Source: Cyclobacteriaceae bacterium
Lineage (GTDB): Bacteria > Bacteroidota > Bacteroidia > Cytophagales > Cyclobacteriaceae
Assembly: GCA_026989535.1 (NCBI GenBank)
Contig: JALSJD010000100.1
Coordinates: forward strand, 1-64,000
DNA length: 64,000 nucleotides
Direction: 5' to 3'
Positions 26,862-36,490 of the stretch are shown in pieces. The position numbers were made by a program, and so were the translations under genes. Within the stretch, counting starts at the first letter, position 1; every line of letters begins with the position of its first letter. The notes under the pieces were generated by a model. It was not told where the DNA came from. It saw only the letters and a program-made list of their open reading frames with translations, and did no database searches.

Positions 26862-27623
26862 TCAAATTATTTTATCAATAAAGCGTACTTCTTCGTTTTT
26901 TTCTACTGCTTTTATAAAAGCACTTCCAATAATCGCGCCATTTGAGTATTTATTAGCTTCCTCTACCATTTTTTTTGATGAAATACCGAAACCAATCATA
27001 GTAGGCGAGCTTAATTTCATTTTTTGAATACGTTTAAAATACTTGATTTGAACTGCACTAAAACCACTTGCGTTAGCCCCGGTAAGTGAGTTATCAGAAA
27101 CAATGTATAAAAATGAAGTGCAGGCAATATCTAATAATTTAATTCGCTGTTCGCTTGTTTGGGGTGTAATTAAAAAAGAAATTTTTACTTGATACTGCGC
27201 AAACAAACGTCTATACTTTTGTTGATATACCTCCATTGGTAAGTCTGGAATAATGAGCCCATCTACCCCTGCTTTAGCGCATTGTTGCAAAAACGGGGCT
27301 ACACCAAATTGCAATAATTGGTTAAAATAACCCATTATTATTAACGGTATTGAGGAGGAGAACTTACGTATTTCAGCCGCCTGATTAAAAATTAAATCCA
27401 TTGTAATTCCATTACTCAAGGCAATAGCACTTGCTTTTTGTATTGCCTCTCCTTCGGCTAGTGGGTCTGAGCTTGGCATACCAATCTCAATTATGTTAAC
27501 ACCTTGATTTATAAGCTCTTTAGCTATATCAGGTAAACTATTAATTTGCGGATAACCTGCCGTGATAAATATATTAATCCGGCTTTCTTTTTGTTCAAAT
27601 ACGTGGTCTATTCTTTTTTCCAT
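26862..27623 (-). CDS. trpA: Tryptophan synthase alpha chain
   Basis: 253-residue TIM-barrel enzyme that cleaves indole-3-glycerol phosphate to indole and glyceraldehyde 3-phosphate, passing indole to TrpB. The catalytic Glu is in NIIEIGMPSSDPLAEG and the phosphate-binding loops are MIGFGISSK and GAIIGSAF. It starts 29 bp inside the end of the TrpF-TrpB fusion and is the last gene of the trp operon. Confidence 0.95.
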   Translation of the reverse strand: MEKRIDHVFEQKESRINIFITAGYPQINSLPDIAKELINQGVNIIEIGMPSSDPLAEGEAIQKASAIALSNGITMDLIFNQAAEIRKFSSSIPLIIMGYFNQLLQFGVAPFLQQCAKAGVDGLIIPDLPMEVYQQKYRRLFAQYQVKISFLITPQTSEQRIKLLDIACTSFLYIVSDNSLTGANASGFSAVQIKYFKRIQKMKLSSPTMIGFGISSKKMVEEANKYSNGAIIGSAFIKAVEKNEEVRFIDKII

Positions 27624-29421
27624 TCTTAAAGTGTTTCATATAGGTAGCCATATCTTTATCTCCTCTACCCGATAAATTTATAACAACTGTATCGGTTGGG
27701 TTAAATTGTATTTTTTCAAGTGCTGCTATGGCATGAGCCGATTCCAGTGCGGGAATTATGCCCTCTAGCCTTGTTAATAACTCTGCAGCCACCAACGCTT
27801 CCGCATCTGTAGCATCCAACCCGATACCCCTTTTATTAGTAAGCAGTTCGGCAAGCATGGGCCCTATGCCGGGGTAATCGAGCCCGGCAGATATAGAAAA
27901 TGGTTCTATTATTTGCCCTTCGGATGTTTGCATAACCAAAGTTTTGTTGCCGTGTATTACACCCACACTGCCCAATTGAAAAGTAGCAGCCGACTTGCCC
28001 GAATGAACCCCTTTACCTGCGGCTTCTACTGCCACTAGTTTTACGTCCTCATTATCAATAAAATGATAGAACGCACCTGCTGCATTGCTGCCACCTCCCA
28101 CACAGGCAATCACGTAGTCAGGCTGTTCAATGTTGTTTTCAGTGTTTAGTTGCTCCTTTATTTCCTTACTAATAACTGCCTGTAAACGAGCTACTAAATC
28201 AGGGTATGGGTGTGGCCCTACCACCGAACCAATTAAATAATAGGTTTCAGGGTTGGCTATCCAGTACCGAATGGCTTCATTGGTGGCATCTTTTAAAGTT
28301 TTACTGCCAGATGTGGCCGGTATTACTTCGGCTCCAAGCATTTTCATTCGGGCCACATTGGGTGCTTGTCTTTCAATGTCTAGCTCACCCATAAATACCT
28401 TGCAGGGCAATCCAAATAAGGCACAAGCAGTTGCCGTGGCAACCCCATGCTGCCCTGCTCCTGTTTCGGCAATTATGCTGGTTTTGCCCATTTTTATGGC
28501 AAGCAATATTTGCCCCAAGGCATTATTTATTTTGTGAGCACCCGTATGATTTAAGTCCTCACGCTTAAGAAAAATGGTTACACCGTATTTAGTAGATAAG
28601 TTCTTGGCCTTGTAAAGAGGTGTGGGCCTGCCCACATAATTTTTTAGCAAGCCTGCCAATTCATTTTGGTAACTTTTAGAGGCTAAAATTGTGAGGTAAT
28701 TCGCCTTTAACTCTTCTACATTTTTGTGCAGCATTTCTGGAATAAATGCTCCTCCAAATGCTCCATAAAATCCATCTTTTGTGGGGTGTTTTGAATTTAC
28801 TCGGGTAACAGTAGTTATAAATAAAGAAAGTACTTCTATGTTTTTAATACCTGGCTCAGTTTCGAATCGGCTGTTTACATCTATACCCATAAGCATTGGG
28901 TGGTTTAACTTTCTAATTTTTTGGGCATCTTCAGGACCAATTCCGCCACTTAAAAAGAATGGCTTATCGATCGTGTAGTTGTTGAGCATGTTCCAATCAA
29001 ACTTTTTGCCACTGCCGCCATAGGTAGCAGAGCTGGTATCAAATAAAAATTTAGAACACACTGGTAAATAAGCACTTAATGACCTAAAGTTAAAGTTATT
29101 ATGTACCTGAAATGCTTTAAATACGGGTTTTACTTTACTGACTTTTTGGCAAAAACCATGCGTTTCATCTCCATGCAGCTGAATAATGTCTAACTTATAA
29201 TCCCGCACTTTTTTTTGGATAAAACGTACCGATACATTTACAAACACCCCTACTCTTTTGGCTTTGCAGCCCTCAACCTTAGGAACAAATGCGGGGCTTT
29301 CAACCAATCGTTTTGACTCATCATAAAAAATAAACCCAACATAATCAGGGTTTAAACTACAGACCTGTTGCAAGTTATTTGCCTCTGTGTTACCACATAC
29401 TTTCACTTTCAATTGTCTCAT
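27595..29421 (-). CDS. trpFB: Bifunctional phosphoribosylanthranilate isomerase / tryptophan synthase beta chain (TrpF-TrpB fusion)
   Basis: 608 residues in one frame. TrpF occupies about 1-205: catalytic Cys in KVCGNTE, Asp in LFDTSSATYGGSGKKFDW, and the phosphate loop FLSGGIGPEDA. TrpB occupies about 212-600: it begins GFYGAFGGAFIPEML, carries the PLP lysine in NHTGAHKINNALGQ, the GETGAGQHG-like AETGAGQHGVATA and the GGGSNA loop. Both active sites look intact. There is only a very short linker between them, so the domains are directly joined. It overlaps trpC by 4 bp and trpA by 29 bp. TrpF and TrpB catalyse non-consecutive steps, so the fusion is not for simple channelling. Confidence 0.93.
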   Translation of the reverse strand: MRQLKVKVCGNTEANNLQQVCSLNPDYVGFIFYDESKRLVESPAFVPKVEGCKAKRVGVFVNVSVRFIQKKVRDYKLDIIQLHGDETHGFCQKVSKVKPVFKAFQVHNNFNFRSLSAYLPVCSKFLFDTSSATYGGSGKKFDWNMLNNYTIDKPFFLSGGIGPEDAQKIRKLNHPMLMGIDVNSRFETEPGIKNIEVLSLFITTVTRVNSKHPTKDGFYGAFGGAFIPEMLHKNVEELKANYLTILASKSYQNELAGLLKNYVGRPTPLYKAKNLSTKYGVTIFLKREDLNHTGAHKINNALGQILLAIKMGKTSIIAETGAGQHGVATATACALFGLPCKVFMGELDIERQAPNVARMKMLGAEVIPATSGSKTLKDATNEAIRYWIANPETYYLIGSVVGPHPYPDLVARLQAVISKEIKEQLNTENNIEQPDYVIACVGGGSNAAGAFYHFIDNEDVKLVAVEAAGKGVHSGKSAATFQLGSVGVIHGNKTLVMQTSEGQIIEPFSISAGLDYPGIGPMLAELLTNKRGIGLDATDAEALVAAELLTRLEGIIPALESAHAIAALEKIQFNPTDTVVINLSGRGDKDMATYMKHFKNGKKNRPRI

Positions 29422-30218
29422 CTTTTTAGTAAGTTTTGCAACCTCTTGTTAAATTCGATAAATGCCACAATGGGTTCTTGTTGTTTCATAAAATATTCTC
29501 CCATTAAAAATCCTTTAAACCCTTCCGAAAGAAGCTGCTCAATTTCGGTAATACTGGATAAACCACTTTCTGAAATTAGCGGAAAGTCTGTATTTCCTAA
29601 CTGGTTTTTAATTTTAATCGACTGGTTAATATCTACTTCAAATGTTTTTAGATTTCTATTATTCACTCCTACCACATTTTCCTCTCCACATAATTTATCA
29701 ATTTCATGGCTATTATGCAATTCAATAAGCACTTCTAACTTTAAACGATGCGCCAGTCTTGTAAAGTTCTTAATCTCTTGAGCCGTAAGTACTGCTGCAA
29801 TTAATAAGATAACATCCGCCCCCATCGCCTTGGATTGGTAAATTTGATATTCATCAATAATAAATTCTTTGCGTAGCAACGGTTTATTCGTAGCTTTTCT
29901 TGCCATCGAAAAATCGGTGTCTTGGGCTTTAAAATAGTCAACATCTGTAAGCACCGAAATACCAACTGCACCATTTGTATCATAGCCTTTTATAATGTCT
30001 GCAGGGTTTACCTCCTCATTTATAATACCTTTAGAAGGAGAAGCACGTTTAAATTCTGCTATTATACCAGGTTGTAATCGTAAGCTGGCTGCCAACGACC
30101 TTATAGGTACACCATTAGTTTCGATAATCTTTTGCAAGCCATTAGTAGTAAGCAGGTTTTTAGCTTGTGCCACCTCTTGCTTTTTAGTTGCTACAATTTT
30201 GTTGAGTATATTAGCCAT
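29418..30218 (-). CDS. trpC: Indole-3-glycerol phosphate synthase
   Basis: 266-residue TIM-barrel enzyme that closes the indole ring of CdRP. Conserved motifs are IIAEFKRASPSKG, LLRKEFIIDEYQIYQ, VLIELHNSHEIDK and VGVNNRNLKTFEVD, with SESGLSS near the C-terminus. It overlaps trpD by 8 bp and the fusion gene by 4 bp, so it is translationally coupled with both. Confidence 0.95.
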   Translation of the reverse strand: MANILNKIVATKKQEVAQAKNLLTTNGLQKIIETNGVPIRSLAASLRLQPGIIAEFKRASPSKGIINEEVNPADIIKGYDTNGAVGISVLTDVDYFKAQDTDFSMARKATNKPLLRKEFIIDEYQIYQSKAMGADVILLIAAVLTAQEIKNFTRLAHRLKLEVLIELHNSHEIDKLCGEENVVGVNNRNLKTFEVDINQSIKIKNQLGNTDFPLISESGLSSITEIEQLLSEGFKGFLMGEYFMKQQEPIVAFIEFNKRLQNLLKR

Positions 30219-31203
30219 TAATCAACGTATTAAAATTTGATTCTGCGTTACCGCTTAAAAGGCTCTCTTTTGCTTCGAGCAGGCAATCTTCCAATTTTTT
30301 AGCTGTATCAAAAGTATTGATGGCCAATGCAGCATTGGTTAGCACTGCTGTATTTTGGGCATCTGACCCCTTACCACTTAACACCATTTTAAATATATCC
30401 GCAGCAGCTTCTAATGTTTCGCCACCATGCAAATCAGCAGCCTTTAACGAAATTTTACACAGCAAATCTTGAGGTGTTTTTATGCCATCAAACGAGTTGG
30501 AAATTATTCTGGTGTCATCGGTTAAGGTTATTTCATCATAGCCATCTAAACTATGCACAATGGTATATTGTTTATCAGATTGCTGAAAAAGGTATTGATA
30601 TTGCCGTGCTACCTGCAAATTATACACGCCCACCATTTGATACCTAGGTTGTGCAGGGTTAACTAAAGGCCCCAACATGTTAAAGAATGTTTTAATGCCC
30701 AAGTTTTTACGAATGCCTCCAACCTCTTTTAGTGCCGGATGAAATAAAGGAGCATGAATAAACGTTAGGTTGCATACGCTTAATTGCTGTGCCAGTATAT
30801 TGCTATTAGTGCTAAACGTGTAACCGAGCTGCTCTAACACATTAGAAGAACCGCTGACACTTGTAACCCCGTAATTGCCATGCTTGGCTACTTTATAGCC
30901 CGCACCTGCTACAACCACAGCCGTAAGTGTAGATATGTTAAAGGTGTTTTTACCATCGCCTCCGGTACCACATAAATCTATGGCGTTAGAGGCATCTAAA
31001 TTTAAGGAAACGGCTAATTCTAACAGGGCTTTTCTAAAACCGGATAACTCTTGTGTAGTGATGGGTTTGTACCAAAAATGGGTTATAAAAGCTGTTATTT
31101 GTACTGGGCTGTATTGCCCATGACCGATGCCTTTCATTATCTCAAAAGCTTCTAATTCGGTTAAGCTATTGCCTGCTAATAAAAATTTTAGTGTTTCCTT
31201 CAT
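30211..31203 (-). CDS. trpD: Anthranilate phosphoribosyltransferase
   Basis: 330-residue enzyme transferring the phosphoribosyl group of PRPP to anthranilate. Diagnostic motifs: DLCGTGGDGKNTFNIST, KHGNYGVTSVSGSSNVLEQLG and FNMLGPLVNPAQPRYQMVGVY. The length is typical. It is 21 bp downstream of trpG and overlaps trpC by 8 bp. Confidence 0.95.
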   Translation of the reverse strand: MKETLKFLLAGNSLTELEAFEIMKGIGHGQYSPVQITAFITHFWYKPITTQELSGFRKALLELAVSLNLDASNAIDLCGTGGDGKNTFNISTLTAVVVAGAGYKVAKHGNYGVTSVSGSSNVLEQLGYTFSTNSNILAQQLSVCNLTFIHAPLFHPALKEVGGIRKNLGIKTFFNMLGPLVNPAQPRYQMVGVYNLQVARQYQYLFQQSDKQYTIVHSLDGYDEITLTDDTRIISNSFDGIKTPQDLLCKISLKAADLHGGETLEAAADIFKMVLSGKGSDAQNTAVLTNAALAINTFDTAKKLEDCLLEAKESLLSGNAESNFNTLING

Positions 31204-31224
31204 CTATGTTTTAACTTATATGCT

Positions 31225-31794
31225 TTAACTTAAAAAATTAGAAATTATCTGTTTCCCATCTTTGGTTAAAATAGATTCAGGATGAAATTGCACGCCCAAT
31301 ATTGGCAATGATTTATGCCTTAACCCCATAATTTCATTATTAGGCCCTTTGCAAATAATAGCTAACTCTTTCGGAAAATTTACTTTATTCACAATCCAAG
31401 AGTGATACCTGCCTGCTTCAAATCCTGTAGGAATACCTTTAAAAAGTGAATCTTCTTTGGTAATGGTTATTTTATCACTAACGCCATGATACACCTTATC
31501 TAAATTAACTAATGAGCCTCCAAAATGTTCTGCAATGGCTTGTTGCCCCAAGCACACCCCTAATGTGGCAATTTTTAGGTTGGCTAGTTCGGCTATGGCT
31601 TCTTTTAGCTCACCTGCTTCATTGGGCAATCCAGGACCGGGGGATAAAATAACATGGGTATAATTAGATAAATTTATTTTATCCAATACATCGTTTCTAA
31701 CCACTCTGGGTCTTTCTCCTACTATTTCCTCTACCAATTGAACCAAGTTGTAGGTAAACGAATCGTAATTATCAATGATTAAAACTTTTATCAT
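31225..31794 (-). CDS. trpG: Anthranilate synthase component II (glutamine amidotransferase)
   Basis: 189-residue class I glutamine amidotransferase subunit that supplies ammonia to TrpE. The catalytic triad is visible: Cys in LGVCLGQQAIAEHFGG and His/Glu in GVQFHPESILT. It overlaps the trpE stop by 4 bp (ATGA). Without a pabA in this window it could also serve p-aminobenzoate synthesis, but that cannot be judged here. Confidence 0.94.
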   Translation of the reverse strand: MIKVLIIDNYDSFTYNLVQLVEEIVGERPRVVRNDVLDKINLSNYTHVILSPGPGLPNEAGELKEAIAELANLKIATLGVCLGQQAIAEHFGGSLVNLDKVYHGVSDKITITKEDSLFKGIPTGFEAGRYHSWIVNKVNFPKELAIICKGPNNEIMGLRHKSLPILGVQFHPESILTKDGKQIISNFLS

Positions 31795-33131
31795 ATCTGT
31801 TCTGCCAGCTCAATGGCTTGGTTTATAGCTCCTAATTTATTTTCTACTTCTTGCAACTCATTTTCCTCCACAGAATCGATTACAATTCCTGCACCTGCCT
31901 GGTAGTGCAACGTATTATTTTTACTCATTAGGCTACGAATCATAATGGCCATATTTAGGTCGCCTTTAAAATTAATATAACCAATAGTACCTCCATAAAA
32001 ACCCCTGGTTTGTTTTTCGTAAGTTGTAATTAATTCTACTGCTTTAAATTTAGGTGCTCCTGACAGGGTGCCTGCTGGAAAAGAATGAGCCAAAGCCTTA
32101 ATGGGGCTTGATTCTGCTCTTAAATTTCCTTTAATAATAGACACAAGGTGAATTACGTGGCTAAAGTGTTGCAGGTGTTTTTCTTTATCAACAACTACTT
32201 GTTTGCACGATTTTGAAAGATCGTTACGTGCTAAATCTACCAACATCGCATGCTCTGCGTTTTCTTTGGGATCAACTTTTAACCTTTCGGCAGCGGCCTC
32301 GTCTTCCACATCCTCCCCTGTTCTTTTTACTGTGCCGGCAATCGGATGTATTTCAGCCTTTTGGTCTTTAACAATAATTTGCGCTTCGGGCGAGGAACCC
32401 ATTAATTTAAAGCTGCCAAAATCAAAGTAAAATAAATAGGGCGAAGGATTAATGGAGCGCAAAGCACGATATACATTAAATTCATCACCCTGAAAAGCTC
32501 TTTGGTATGGCCTTGATAGTACCAATTGAAAAACATCTCCTCTTTTACAATGCTGCTTGGCTTTGGTTACTAACTCCTTGAACTCATTAGTAGAAATTGA
32601 GCTCTGCTTATTTTGTGCGGCAAAATCAAATTGCGCTCCATTTAATTGATTTATCATTTTTTTAATAGGCTCAATATTGCTTGCTTCCGCAGGGTCGAGC
32701 TTATTTTCGATGATATGCAGCTTGCTATTAAAGTGGTCGAATGCAATTATGTACTTATAATACGTAAACTTAATTTCAGGAATATCAGAAGGGTTTATTG
32801 TACTGTATGAATCGAAATACCGCACAGATTCGAACGACAAATACCCAAAAGCACCATTAAATACGCTGGCTAACACGCTATCTGTTATAAGGTTGTATTT
32901 GTTGGTAAACGATTCTAATTTTTCAATTACATTTTTTTGATTACCCTCAATTACCAAGGAATCAAGTGGGTGGAATGCAATAAAAGAATAGCTGTTTTCT
33001 TTGCCTTGGTAATCGGAGCTTTCGAGCAATGCAGATACGGGGTACTGCTCTCGAATTTTAAGATAAACACTTACTGGAGTAACGAGGTCACCTAGTTGGG
33101 TGTAAATTTGGGAATATATTTTTGGTTTCAT
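31791..33131 (-). CDS. trpE: Anthranilate synthase component I
   Basis: 446-residue chorismate-utilising enzyme converting chorismate to anthranilate with TrpG. Conserved C-terminal motifs: GDVFQLVLSRPYQRAF, SPEAQIIV, HPIAGTVKRTGEDVEDE, ERLKVDPKENAEHAMLVDLARNDL, and SFPAGTLSGAPKFKAVE, followed by GFYGGTIGYI. The N-terminal region includes LESSDYQGKENSYSF, where the LLES tryptophan feedback element is found in TrpE. The ATG at 33131 lies 17 bp after the T-run of a terminator hairpin and downstream of a Trp-rich leader peptide. Confidence 0.95.
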   Translation of the reverse strand: MKPKIYSQIYTQLGDLVTPVSVYLKIREQYPVSALLESSDYQGKENSYSFIAFHPLDSLVIEGNQKNVIEKLESFTNKYNLITDSVLASVFNGAFGYLSFESVRYFDSYSTINPSDIPEIKFTYYKYIIAFDHFNSKLHIIENKLDPAEASNIEPIKKMINQLNGAQFDFAAQNKQSSISTNEFKELVTKAKQHCKRGDVFQLVLSRPYQRAFQGDEFNVYRALRSINPSPYLFYFDFGSFKLMGSSPEAQIIVKDQKAEIHPIAGTVKRTGEDVEDEAAAERLKVDPKENAEHAMLVDLARNDLSKSCKQVVVDKEKHLQHFSHVIHLVSIIKGNLRAESSPIKALAHSFPAGTLSGAPKFKAVELITTYEKQTRGFYGGTIGYINFKGDLNMAIMIRSLMSKNNTLHYQAGAGIVIDSVEENELQEVENKLGAINQAIELAEQI

Positions 33132-33147
33132 TTTAAAAATTAGTCAT

Positions 33148-33177
33148 AAAAAAAGCCTGCTGAGTGTATCAGCAGGC
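33148..33177 (-). terminator. trp attenuator terminator
   Basis: On the minus strand: GCCTGCTGA, loop TACAC, TCAGCAGGC, followed directly by seven T (33154-33148), 17 bp ahead of the trpE start. A perfect 9-bp stem plus U-tract placed between the leader peptide and the first structural gene is the hallmark of an attenuator. The hairpin loop and 3' arm (CACTCA, 33166-33161) can instead pair with TGAGTG at 33213-33208, overlapping the leader stop codon, giving a candidate antiterminator. Confidence 0.75.
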
Positions 33178-33206
33178 CTATGTATTTTTACAAACGGACG
33201 TTACTT

Positions 33207-33263
33207 TCACTCACTTTGTGTAATTAAAAGCCACCTCCAATTTGTAGTTATTGCCGTATTCAT
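33207..33263 (-). CDS. trpL: trp operon leader peptide
   Basis: 18-codon frame MNTAITTNWRWLLITQSE with Trp at positions 9 and 11, ending in TGA 30 bp before the terminator stem. Two of 18 residues being Trp immediately upstream of trpE, with a terminator and a mutually exclusive pairing that overlaps the leader stop, supports ribosome-mediated attenuation: a ribosome stalled at the Trp codons leaves the antiterminator free, while one reaching the stop codon covers it. It is too short to be caught by standard gene calling. A -7 box TACATTTG lies 4 bp upstream of its ATG, so it may be translated from a leaderless or nearly leaderless mRNA. Confidence 0.7.
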   Translation of the reverse strand: MNTAITTNWRWLLITQSE

Positions 33264-33267
33264 ACAG

Positions 33268-33299
33268 CAAATGTAAGTTTATTATTTAGTAAGTAACAA
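33268..33299 (-). promoter_or_regulatory. Putative trp operon promoter
   Basis: Minus strand TTG (33299-33297), 21-bp spacer, TACATTTG (33275-33268), matching the Bacteroidota TTTG/TAnnTTTG promoter consensus. Transcription would begin at about 33264-33261, at or next to the trpL ATG. Confidence 0.6.
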
Positions 33300-33372
33300 G
33301 AAACTATGCAAGATTGTTTAAAATTCCTTACTCCTCCCGCAGATTACGCTGACGAACGCAGACCCTATGAGT

Positions 33373-33630
33373 GCCTGTCCATAAAGTCAATGTTTTCAGA
33401 AATAACAAATGACAATATTCAAATCAATGTCGTTTAGTTAAGCTTTCCGTCACTGCGATCCGCCATTTGGAGAAGCAGTCTGTTCAGCTTAACCCTGTAG
33501 TCTTCAAATTAGAGATTGCTTCGTTCCTCGCAAAGACGTTTTGGCTTAACTAAACGACATTGATATGCAAATAGCAAATACATGCCAAAATGCAATCGCC
33601 TAAACACCAAACACTTGCATGGTTTTAAAT
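33373..33630 (+). mobile_element. MITE-like element, copy 2 (interrupted)
   Basis: Left end GCCTGTCCATAAA (33373-33385) plus the family interior (GTCAATGTTTTCAGAAATAA) and, beyond the nested insertion, the shared phrase CGCCTAAACACCAAACACTT (33588-33607). The right inverted end is not found. The sequence TTTCAGCCGGTCGGCAGG at 33644-33661 occurs in reverse orientation inside copy 1. Confidence 0.65.
33424..33563. mobile_element. 140-bp palindrome-ended element nested in the MITE
   Basis: Perfect 20-bp terminal inverted repeats TCAATGTCGTTTAGTTAAGC (33424-33443) and GCTTAACTAAACGACATTGA (33544-33563). The interior holds CACTGCGATCCGCC and GAGATTGCTTCGTTCCTCG, typical Bacteroidota intergenic repeat words. 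No coding frame. No other copy is present in the window. Confidence 0.7.
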
Positions 33631-33663
33631 TTTTATTGTTGAGGTTTCAGCCGGTCGGCAGGT

Positions 33664-33901
33664 ATTTATTAATTGAACATACTGCTTGAGATAATTTTAG
33701 CGCTTTTCTTTTTACTCAGAGAGTCCTCTGCGAGAGACTCTTTCAGAAGCATTATTTTCAGCAGGTATCATTTGATGATACCTATTTATAAATAATTTAG
33801 GTTAAATGAGTGAATGTTAATTCAGAGGGGTGTATTTAGCTTACAATAAATAAACCCTAAAACAATCTACTTGAAACCTAATTGCCTTAATTTTGAAATA
33901 A
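33664..33901. repeat. Small hairpins upstream of pdxH
   Basis: The stretch contains AGAGTC/GACTCT near 33719-33741 and a perfect 8-bp hairpin AGGTATCA (33763-33770) / TGATACCT (33776-33783). A TAATTTTG box (33888-33895) ends 6 bp before the pdxH ATG but has no well-spaced upstream element. No gene is seen here. Confidence 0.45.
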
Positions 33902-34549
33902 ATGGTAACTAATAAATCAATTGCAGCTATCCGTAAAGACTACTCGGCCAAGAGTTTGTCCAAAACAGATGTGGATAAAAATCCTACAGCCCAATTTAAC
34001 AAATGGTTTAAGGAAGCCATACACGCTGAGGTTGAGGAAGTAAACGCTATGACACTTTCTACAGCCACTAAGCAAGGCAAACCAAGTGCACGAATTGTAT
34101 TATTAAAAGGGATTGATAATAACGGATTTGTATTTTTTACCAATTATAATAGTACCAAAGGGCAGCAATTAGCAGAAAATCCTTTTGCGGCACTTACCTT
34201 TTTTTGGAAAGAATTAGAACGACAGGTACGTATTGAAGGTACGGTACAAAAAATTTCGGAGCAAGACTCAATCACCTATTTTAATTCGCGCCCTTATAAA
34301 AGCAGGGTTGGTGCTTGGGTTTCTAACCAAAGTAAGCCTCTTATTTCAAGAGTAGAATTAATGCGAAAATTTACGTTAAAAGCGGCTACTTTTATTGGAC
34401 AAAAAGTACCCAAGCCTAATTTTTGGGGTGGCTATATTCTTATGCCTACACGCATAGAGTTTTGGCAAGGCAGGCCTAGCCGTTTGCACGATCGGATTAA
34501 TTATAGCTTAGAAAATGGCACGTGGCACGTAGAAAGACTATCGCCTTAA
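33902..34549 (+). CDS. pdxH: Pyridoxamine 5'-phosphate oxidase
   Basis: 215-residue FMN enzyme oxidising pyridoxine or pyridoxamine 5'-phosphate to pyridoxal 5'-phosphate. Conserved features: MTLSTATKQGKPSARIVLLKG (FMN site), GFVFFTNYNSTKGQQLAENP, FWKELERQVRIEGT and the C-terminal EFWQGRPSRLHDRINY. The length matches the family. The following glycosyltransferase gene starts in its stop codon (TAATG), so the two are translationally coupled although functionally unrelated. Confidence 0.95.
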   Translation: MVTNKSIAAIRKDYSAKSLSKTDVDKNPTAQFNKWFKEAIHAEVEEVNAMTLSTATKQGKPSARIVLLKGIDNNGFVFFTNYNSTKGQQLAENPFAALTFFWKELERQVRIEGTVQKISEQDSITYFNSRPYKSRVGAWVSNQSKPLISRVELMRKFTLKAATFIGQKVPKPNFWGGYILMPTRIEFWQGRPSRLHDRINYSLENGTWHVERLSP

Positions 34550-35814
34550 TGAGTATTTATTTAGAACGGTACGCCTACCCTCCGCTTTACATTTTACCAG
34601 TAGCAAAACCAACTACTGGGCTTATTATTGTAATACCTGTATTTAACGAACAGCATACCATTACAGCATTAAACAGCCTATTTAAATCAGACCTCCCTCC
34701 TGTTAACACCGAAGCACTCATCATCATTAACCAACCAGAGCATTGCGATAAAACTGTAAAACACCAAAACAACCACACCCTTAATGAGGTTAAAAATTGG
34801 ATTAGCCTTAACCAAAAACCATATCTTCAGTTTTTTGTTACTCATATTACTTTACCCAAAAAGCACGCTGGTGTAGGGCTTGCCCGCAAAGCAGGTATGG
34901 ATGAGGCCGTACGAAGGTTTGAAGAAATAAATAATGTGAAAGGCATTATTCTTTGTTTTGATGCGGATTGTACATGTAGCTCTAGCTACCTCAAAAATGT
35001 TTACTCAAGTTTTAAAAACAAGAAATTAACCGGAGCTTCCATCAATTTTGAGCATACCTATCATACCTTATCAACAGATAAAGAAGAGGGAATTATTCAA
35101 TACGAGCTGCATTTAAGGTATTATGTGAATGGGCTAAGAAAAGCAGGTTATCCGTATGCTTTTCATACCATTGGCTCAAGCATGGCAGTACGAGCCGATG
35201 TATATGTAAAAGCGGGCGGTATGAATAGGCGAAAGGCAGGCGAAGATTTTCATTTTTTACACAAAATAATCCCTTATGGTAATTATGATGAGATTACCAC
35301 CGCTACGGTGTTCCCTTCCGCAAGAACTTCGGATCGTGTACCCTTTGGCACGGGCAAAGCCATGGGCGATTGGTTGCACAAAAAAGAAACAGACATGATA
35401 ACGTATCATCCTCAAATTTTTAAAGAACTAGAGGCGCTATTTAAAATTGTTCCGTCTTTTTACGCCACACCCGACCCACAGGTTTTGTTAAAGCCACTTT
35501 CAACAGGGATTAAAGCCTATTTAGCCCAAGAAAATTATGCACATGTTTTAAGCAACATTCAAAGGCAAAGCACCAATTTGCCCACCTTTATTCATCGGTG
35601 GTTTAATTGGTTTAATGGGCTGCGAACCTTGCATTTGGTACACTACTTGCGCAATAATTACTATCCTTCTATTGCTGTAAGCAAAGCGGCTGCTCAGCTA
35701 CTAGAGGTAAAGGAGGGTGATACGGAAAAACTACTTGGTATGTACCGAACATTGGATAAAAATTTTAAAGCAGACCAAATAAGTCTGAAACACCTGTATT
35801 CCGAGTTCCTATAA
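34549..35814 (+). CDS. Glycosyltransferase family 2 protein
   Basis: 421-residue GT-A fold transferase. The N-terminal nucleotide-sugar domain starts GLIIVIPVFNEQHTI, with a DxD-type motif in ILCFDADCTCS and a later acceptor region MNRRKAGEDFHFLHK, in which ED is the usual catalytic-base position. There are no strong membrane segments. The start is the ATG at 34549, overlapping the pdxH stop by one base; a GTG at 34522 would extend it 9 residues. Donor and acceptor are unknown. Its last 50 bp overlap the end of bshB1 on the opposite strand. Confidence 0.8.
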   Translation: MSIYLERYAYPPLYILPVAKPTTGLIIVIPVFNEQHTITALNSLFKSDLPPVNTEALIIINQPEHCDKTVKHQNNHTLNEVKNWISLNQKPYLQFFVTHITLPKKHAGVGLARKAGMDEAVRRFEEINNVKGIILCFDADCTCSSSYLKNVYSSFKNKKLTGASINFEHTYHTLSTDKEEGIIQYELHLRYYVNGLRKAGYPYAFHTIGSSMAVRADVYVKAGGMNRRKAGEDFHFLHKIIPYGNYDEITTATVFPSARTSDRVPFGTGKAMGDWLHKKETDMITYHPQIFKELEALFKIVPSFYATPDPQVLLKPLSTGIKAYLAQENYAHVLSNIQRQSTNLPTFIHRWFNWFNGLRTLHLVHYLRNNYYPSIAVSKAAAQLLEVKEGDTEKLLGMYRTLDKNFKADQISLKHLYSEFL

Positions 35815-36490
35815 ATCCTTCGCCAAATTTAACTCCAATAGAGTGGCCAAACATTTTGCCTCTGGCATTAAGCATTTTTAAAAACTCCGGAGAAGAAATA
35901 AACGTTTCCCCTTTCGGGTCGTTCGGGTTGTGTAATTGAGAAGCAAACGCCCAAATGGCTTTGTCTCTTAGTTCTAAATAATCCGATACATCCAATATAA
36001 AATCGGGTGTAAGCATTTGGCTTTGAATGTAATGGTACACGGCTCTTGGCCTAAAAACAGCTTGGGGCTTACCATCAACCTTTGTTTCTATTTTTTTTAG
36101 CCCTGCCAAAAACACGGCCGCTTTTGACATGGCAGATGCGCGTACATGATCGGGATGCCTTTCTTCGGGTGCGTTAATAAGTAATACTTCGGGGCGGTAT
36201 TTTCGAATCACTTCAACAATTTTCAATTGATTCTCTACTGAATTTTCGAAAAACACATCTTGCAATCCTAAATTCTCTCTTGCAGCCAACCCAAGTACCT
36301 TAGCAGCATTGGCCGATTCCTCTAATCGTAGTTCGGGAGAGCCTTTTGTACCCATTTGCCCTTGGGTAAAATCTACAATACCCACTTTTTTTCCTTCGGC
36401 ACAGTATTTAGCAATGGTGCCGCCACACGATAATTCAACATCATCTGGATGAGCGGCTAAAGCAAGTATATCAAGTTTTATTTGTGTCAT
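35765..36490 (-). CDS. bshB1: Bacillithiol biosynthesis deacetylase BshB1
   Basis: 241-residue LmbE/PIG-L zinc deacetylase removing acetate from GlcNAc-malate in bacillithiol synthesis. The metal-binding AHPDDVE motif is at about 13-19 and a second ligand region is ERHPDHVRAS; the C-terminal GVKFGEGFIGTR is typical of BshB1. Its presence indicates that this organism uses bacillithiol as its low-molecular-weight thiol. The gene is convergent with the glycosyltransferase, sharing 50 bp at the 3' ends. Confidence 0.88.
   Translation of the reverse strand: MTQIKLDILALAAHPDDVELSCGGTIAKYCAEGKKVGIVDFTQGQMGTKGSPELRLEESANAAKVLGLAARENLGLQDVFFENSVENQLKIVEVIRKYRPEVLLINAPEERHPDHVRASAMSKAAVFLAGLKKIETKVDGKPQAVFRPRAVYHYIQSQMLTPDFILDVSDYLELRDKAIWAFASQLHNPNDPKGETFISSPEFLKMLNARGKMFGHSIGVKFGEGFIGTRNTGVSDLFGLL

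Follow-up and report, generated by a model that had tools for sequence, protein, structure and literature searches.

We describe a putative ribosome-dependent transcription attenuator of the trp operon, a reading that the comparative evidence makes very probable, in a stretch of 64,000 nucleotides of bacterial DNA (the window). Comparison with related sequences, nearly 80 altogether, establishes a short leader with clustered Trp codons, a hairpin (P1), an intrinsic terminator, and a pairing between a strand downstream of the Trp codons and the terminator apex at a conserved spacing. On balance, we lean towards a Trp-attenuator design that is shared across the class and undescribed as such, in which the strand lies about 17 nt past the Trp codons, blocks the terminator through its apex and not its 5' arm, and often goes with a leaderless upstream open reading frame (ORF); operons for other amino acids, his among them, may use it too. 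The best matches of the window in the genome collection are Cyclobacteriaceae metagenome-assembled genomes (MAGs) and other Bacteroidota, and the window therefore belongs to the Bacteroidota. Its features are the following.

33297 to 33299, minus strand: -33 element TTG, read from the sequence, 21 nt upstream of the -7 box
33268 to 33275, minus strand: -7 box TACATTTG, of the Bacteroidota sigma-A type TAnnTTTG, from the sequence and 5/5 genus members
33207 to 33263, minus strand: leader peptide ORF MNTAITTNWRWLLITQSE, 18 codons, from the sequence and the conserved Trp-run leader in relatives
33231 to 33239, minus strand: sensing codons TGG AGG TGG (Trp-Arg-Trp), in place of the TGG TGG TGG of the four remaining genus members
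33189 to 33246, minus strand: P1 hairpin, the Trp-codon region paired with the stretch after the stop codon, from folding, own-versus-swapped pairing, a compensatory change, and a partial match to RF01692
33208 to 33213, minus strand: antiterminator strand TGAGTG, overlapping the stop codon and 17 nt past the last Trp codon, from comparative pairing tests
33153 to 33179, minus strand: intrinsic terminator hairpin, from the sequence, relatives, and folding
33161 to 33166, minus strand: CACTCA, which comprises the terminator loop and the first bases of the 3' arm and pairs with the antiterminator strand, from the sequence and pairing tests
33148 to 33154, minus strand: seven-T run, the U tract of the terminator, read from the sequence
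31791 to 33131, minus strand: trpE, first gene of the operon, from annotation of downstream ORFs
26862 to 31794, minus strand: trpG, trpD, trpC, trpFB (fused), and trpA, from annotation of downstream ORFs

The tetranucleotide CTGT separates the -7 box from the leader ATG (33263-33261, minus strand), and the leader reads ATG AAT ACG GCA ATA ACT ACA AAT TGG AGG TGG CTT TTA ATT ACA CAA AGT GAG TGA, with its stop codon at 33209-33207 on the same strand. The 9-bp core of the terminator is formed by GCCTGCTGA (33177-33169) and TCAGCAGGC (33163-33155), again on the minus strand, and 16 nt lie between the T run and the trpE ATG. The initial annotation of this region had placed the promoter, the 18-codon leader, the 9-bp terminator with its seven T, and trpE correctly base for base. 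The operon, in the order trpEGDC(FB)A, follows directly 3' of the leader region. Control by TrpR or TRAP was considered and rejected: searches of the window's own genome and 18 relatives detected the positive controls and no homologue of either regulator. Elsewhere in the window, positions 34522-35814 on the plus strand hold a 430-aa ORF that adjoins pdxH and is without an NCBIfam match.

Two marks of a ribosome-mediated Trp attenuator are present here: a short ORF in which Trp codons cluster and which relatives share, and an intrinsic terminator between this leader and the first structural gene. Across the order, we analysed the regions upstream of trpE in 51 genomes, the window's own included. 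In 44 of them, a short ORF with WWW, WW, or WxW is followed by an intrinsic terminator; in the other seven, no leader with terminator precedes trpE. A class-wide sample of 28 loci, three of which are from the same family, has leader and terminator in every locus. The annotators' proposal of a Trp attenuator with two Trp codons is thus borne out, and the alignment of relatives, in which a lack of conserved leader frame or stems was to count against it, finds both conserved. These counts also bear on the reading that a terminator and an unrelated short ORF stand before trpE by chance. Taken alone, the window exceeds chance only modestly, with a strand:apex energy of -8.2 kcal/mol that 4% of shuffles equal (p ~0.04); taken together, the relatives carry leader, position, and pairings far beyond chance, conserved in dozens of genomes, and this comparison already contradicts an accidental arrangement, which we regard as vanishingly improbable.

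The Trp-Arg-Trp (WRW) run occurs only in the window, and the four other members of the genus have WWW. The difference is a TGG to AGG change at the middle codon, matched by a change of its partner base in P1 (A-U in the window; U-A in the genus member G002). A sequencing error is probably not the source of WRW, because the P1 partner has changed in compensation. The leader is a WWW leader whose middle codon has turned to Arg in this species, and the two Trp codons first noted stand. The loss of a Trp codon confined to one species could instead mean that the attenuator is decaying here, with a weak response and a mostly constitutive terminator. We consider this quite improbable, since the change is compensated in P1, since nothing is broken in the leader frame, strand, apex, or terminator, and since fewer or interrupted Trp codons exist in other leaders (WW, WYW, WLW). 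Three loci (L062, L135, and L137) have a Trp run interrupted as WYW or WLW, a parallel to the WRW of the window. In Bacteroidales-type MAGs (L002-L009 and L012), the trp terminator, AAAGGTCTGTCGTTCGCGGCAGGCCTTT, is nearly invariant, as is the stretch after the leader, GCTGATGAAnTGATGTGAC; this invariance exceeds what a plain terminator needs.

The pairing of TGAGTG with CACTCA, proposed at the outset as the antiterminator, was examined by searching each leader for the strongest duplex that the sequence past its Trp codons can form with its own terminator apex (loop +/- 4 nt). The mean is -11.75 kcal/mol for own apices and -7.78 kcal/mol for apices swapped among leaders, and 0 of 5,000 permutations come near. 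With the strand fixed at +12 to +32, the 44 Cytophagales leaders give -11.9 kcal/mol per sequence for own and -7.0 for swapped apices (z -12.2, some 12 standard deviations), and displacing the strand by -30 or +30 leaves no pairing signal in these leaders. Swapping with the nearest relative leaves the own apex better in 19 of 28 cases, worse in 2, and equal in 7 (p = 1e-4). In the genus, the outer strand:apex pair varies among U-A, U-G, and C-G. The test was repeated on 25 leaders of the class from outside the order; it was written down beforehand and was not wholly blind, as a few of the 25 come from the same genomes as RF01692 matches examined earlier. Here own duplexes reach -9.30 against -7.12 for swapped ones (0/20,000 permutations), and the strand starts within the predicted +13 to +21 in 20/25. 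Bacteroidales-type relatives by themselves (10 sequences, with nearly invariant terminators) give weak pairing evidence, at z -2.2. In the 10 sequences found by the Rfam model, the strand likewise pairs with the apex; it lies at +16 and overlaps the stop codon. On their own, these sequences are too similar among themselves for the swap test.

The position of the strand is kept relative to the Trp codons. It starts a median of 17 nt (IQR 15-18) past the last Trp codon and falls at +13 to +21 in 49 of 54 sequences, against 9.6 expected from shuffles. Its position varies with a standard deviation of 3.3 nt when counted from the Trp codons and of 10.8 nt when counted from the stop, which rules out the stop codon as the anchor. 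The overlap of strand and stop codon that had been pointed out for the window is real and is common among relatives, but it is no rule. Given the size of the ribosome footprint, a strand at about 17 nt would lie just past the front edge of a ribosome stalled on the Trp codons. In four loci (L056, L077, L082, and L084), the strand (e.g., GGGAAGAACC) lies within the coding region, well before the stop, and its partner is a loop of the GGTTTTTCCC type.

The second conserved pairing is P1, the counterpart of the RF01692 stem, although the RF01692 match of the window is weak. Over 54 sequences, own P1 pairings sum to -727, against -574 +/- 16 for swapped ones. In the window, the antiterminator strand is itself among the bases paired in P1. 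Some P1 changes in other genus members break pairing in the alignment used, and these count against the attenuator as best explanation.

To relate these pairings to translation, the window leader was folded with a ribosome masked at different positions. With no ribosome, P1 and the terminator form. A ribosome at a Trp codon blocks P1, and the strand:apex helix reaches P ~1.0 once nt 103-105 are exposed, and only in this state. With a ribosome at the stop codon, the terminator forms. These computations and the pairing tests agree with the earlier suggestion that a stalled ribosome would free the strand and a ribosome at the stop codon would mask it, as a ribosome-mediated attenuator is expected to do. 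In the full-length equilibrium fold, the terminator forms in every ribosome state. The strand:apex helix falls short of the terminator in stability, both in the window (-8.2 vs -17.1) and on average across leaders (-11.8 vs -18.4), and the terminator wins at equilibrium; antitermination must therefore be kinetic, with the hairpin blocked while it forms. The partner in the window lies directly against the 3' arm, and the full lower stem would be unlikely to coexist with the strand:apex helix.

This weakness, together with the fact that the strand touches only about 3 bp of the terminator, gives some room to a different reading, in which the attenuator is real and antitermination works mainly through another helix (e.g., a partner of the terminator 5' arm), the strand:apex pairing being secondary or transient (e.g., a pseudoknot that merely delays the terminator). 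We judge this unlikely, if slightly less so than decay: covariation is confined to a single place, +12 to +32 past the Trp codons, and is lost on shifting to either side, and strand:apex is the dominant fold with a ribosome at the Trp codons while the apex emerges.

Under the preferred reading, a ribosome-dependent attenuator acting through the apex, we infer the transcription start, the stalling, the direction of regulation, and the kinetic trapping as follows. Transcription probably starts at the A of the leader ATG (33263), and the leader would be read from its 5' end. With little charged tRNA-Trp available, the ribosome would stall at the Trp codons, hold P1 open, and leave UGAGUG free just ahead; the free strand would pair with CACUCA as the terminator apex leaves RNA polymerase, and transcription would continue into trpE. 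With ample Trp, the ribosome would get as far as the stop codon and cover UGAGUG, and the terminator would form. With no ribosome, UGAGUG would be trapped by P1, and the terminator would form too.

Near-leaderless initiation, suggested initially from the closeness of the -7 box to the ATG, gains comparative support. The arrangement TTG-N21-TACATTTG is retained in G001-G003, and the distance from the -7 box to the leader ATG is 4 nt in 5/5 genus members. In 22 of 55 leaders, a box precedes the leader ATG by 3 to 9 nt, against 0.5 expected, and the nearest box is never less than 4 nt away. In Flavobacterium psychrophilum, the TAnnTTTG box lies at -12 to -5 (PMC9723704); with the 4-nt gap seen here, this sets the predicted +1 on the A of the ATG, making the leader a candidate leaderless upstream ORF. 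Leaderless mRNAs are rare in the phylum, at 3.7-5.5% (PMC7366714 and PMC9723704). A published precedent for a leaderless leader peptide is trpL (rnTrpL) of Sinorhizobium meliloti (PMC7298713), in which the ATG is the RNA 5' end and attenuation operates without transcriptional repression. The two systems differ in that the S. meliloti leader is alphaproteobacterial and its 5' end was mapped experimentally, whereas leaderlessness in the window is predicted from the spacing of the -7 box.

The closest known relative is Bacteroid-trp (RF01692; Weinberg et al. 2010, PMC2864571), a Bacteroidota leader that precedes trp biosynthesis genes, encodes a Trp-run peptide, and has a long stem connecting the Trp-codon region with the sequence past the stop. 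Position and stem are also those of the window, which aligns along the full model. Its score of 35.3 bits (E 0.22) is below the gathering cut-off of 49, which rules out membership by score; the window is thus of the same kind as RF01692 by position, leader, and stem, not by score. The model has no match in the window's own genome and reaches the cut-off in 1 of the 59 genomes searched (own plus relatives). It also differs in extent, as it stops within the terminator 5' arm and leaves out the apex pairing. Such attenuators had been called seldom annotated in Bacteroidota, which is too strong if read as unannotated: RF01692 has been in Rfam since 2010, and two F. psychrophilum papers (PMC9723704, PMC6414381) treat structured 5' regions in this same phylum, propose leader-peptide attenuation for amino-acid operons, and note Bacteroid-trp before trp. 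In the parts consulted we found neither the antiterminator mechanism nor the apex pairing. The literature searched yielded no described Bacteroidota trp antiterminator, though the apex pairing may be described in Lopatovskaya 2010 or the supplement of Weinberg 2010. What is new is the breadth and the mechanistic detail given to an element already known; the system itself is not of a new kind.

The trpL attenuator of Escherichia coli shares with the window the stall at Trp codons, the mutually exclusive antiterminator and terminator, and the masking by a ribosome at the stop codon. Its antiterminator uses the 5' arm side of the terminator. In the leaders studied here, the strand pairs instead with the loop and a few flanking bases from both arms; for the window, the partner is the loop and the 3' arm. 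The Rfam model of the proteobacterial Trp leader has no listed match in 31000-36000 up to E 5.

Bacteroidota Trp attenuation has been represented by one Rfam model that reaches essentially one family in the genomes searched; the comparison indicates that ribosome-dependent Trp attenuation is the usual control before trpE in the class. It supplies a concrete, testable antiterminator, predicts that the leader is translated from an mRNA lacking a 5' untranslated region, a rare type in this phylum, and makes possible a better RNA model that would catch many leaders now missed. Beyond trp, the strand:apex test on 10 His leaders gives a weak result (own -6.8, swapped -5.7; 364/5,000 permutations as good). 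His-rich short ORFs precede hisG in about half of the loci examined, the window's own genome included. There, on contig C10 (L117), a His leader, MNMIFTSLHHHHHNCPQANR, and a terminator lie upstream of hisG, likely a second attenuator in the same genome.
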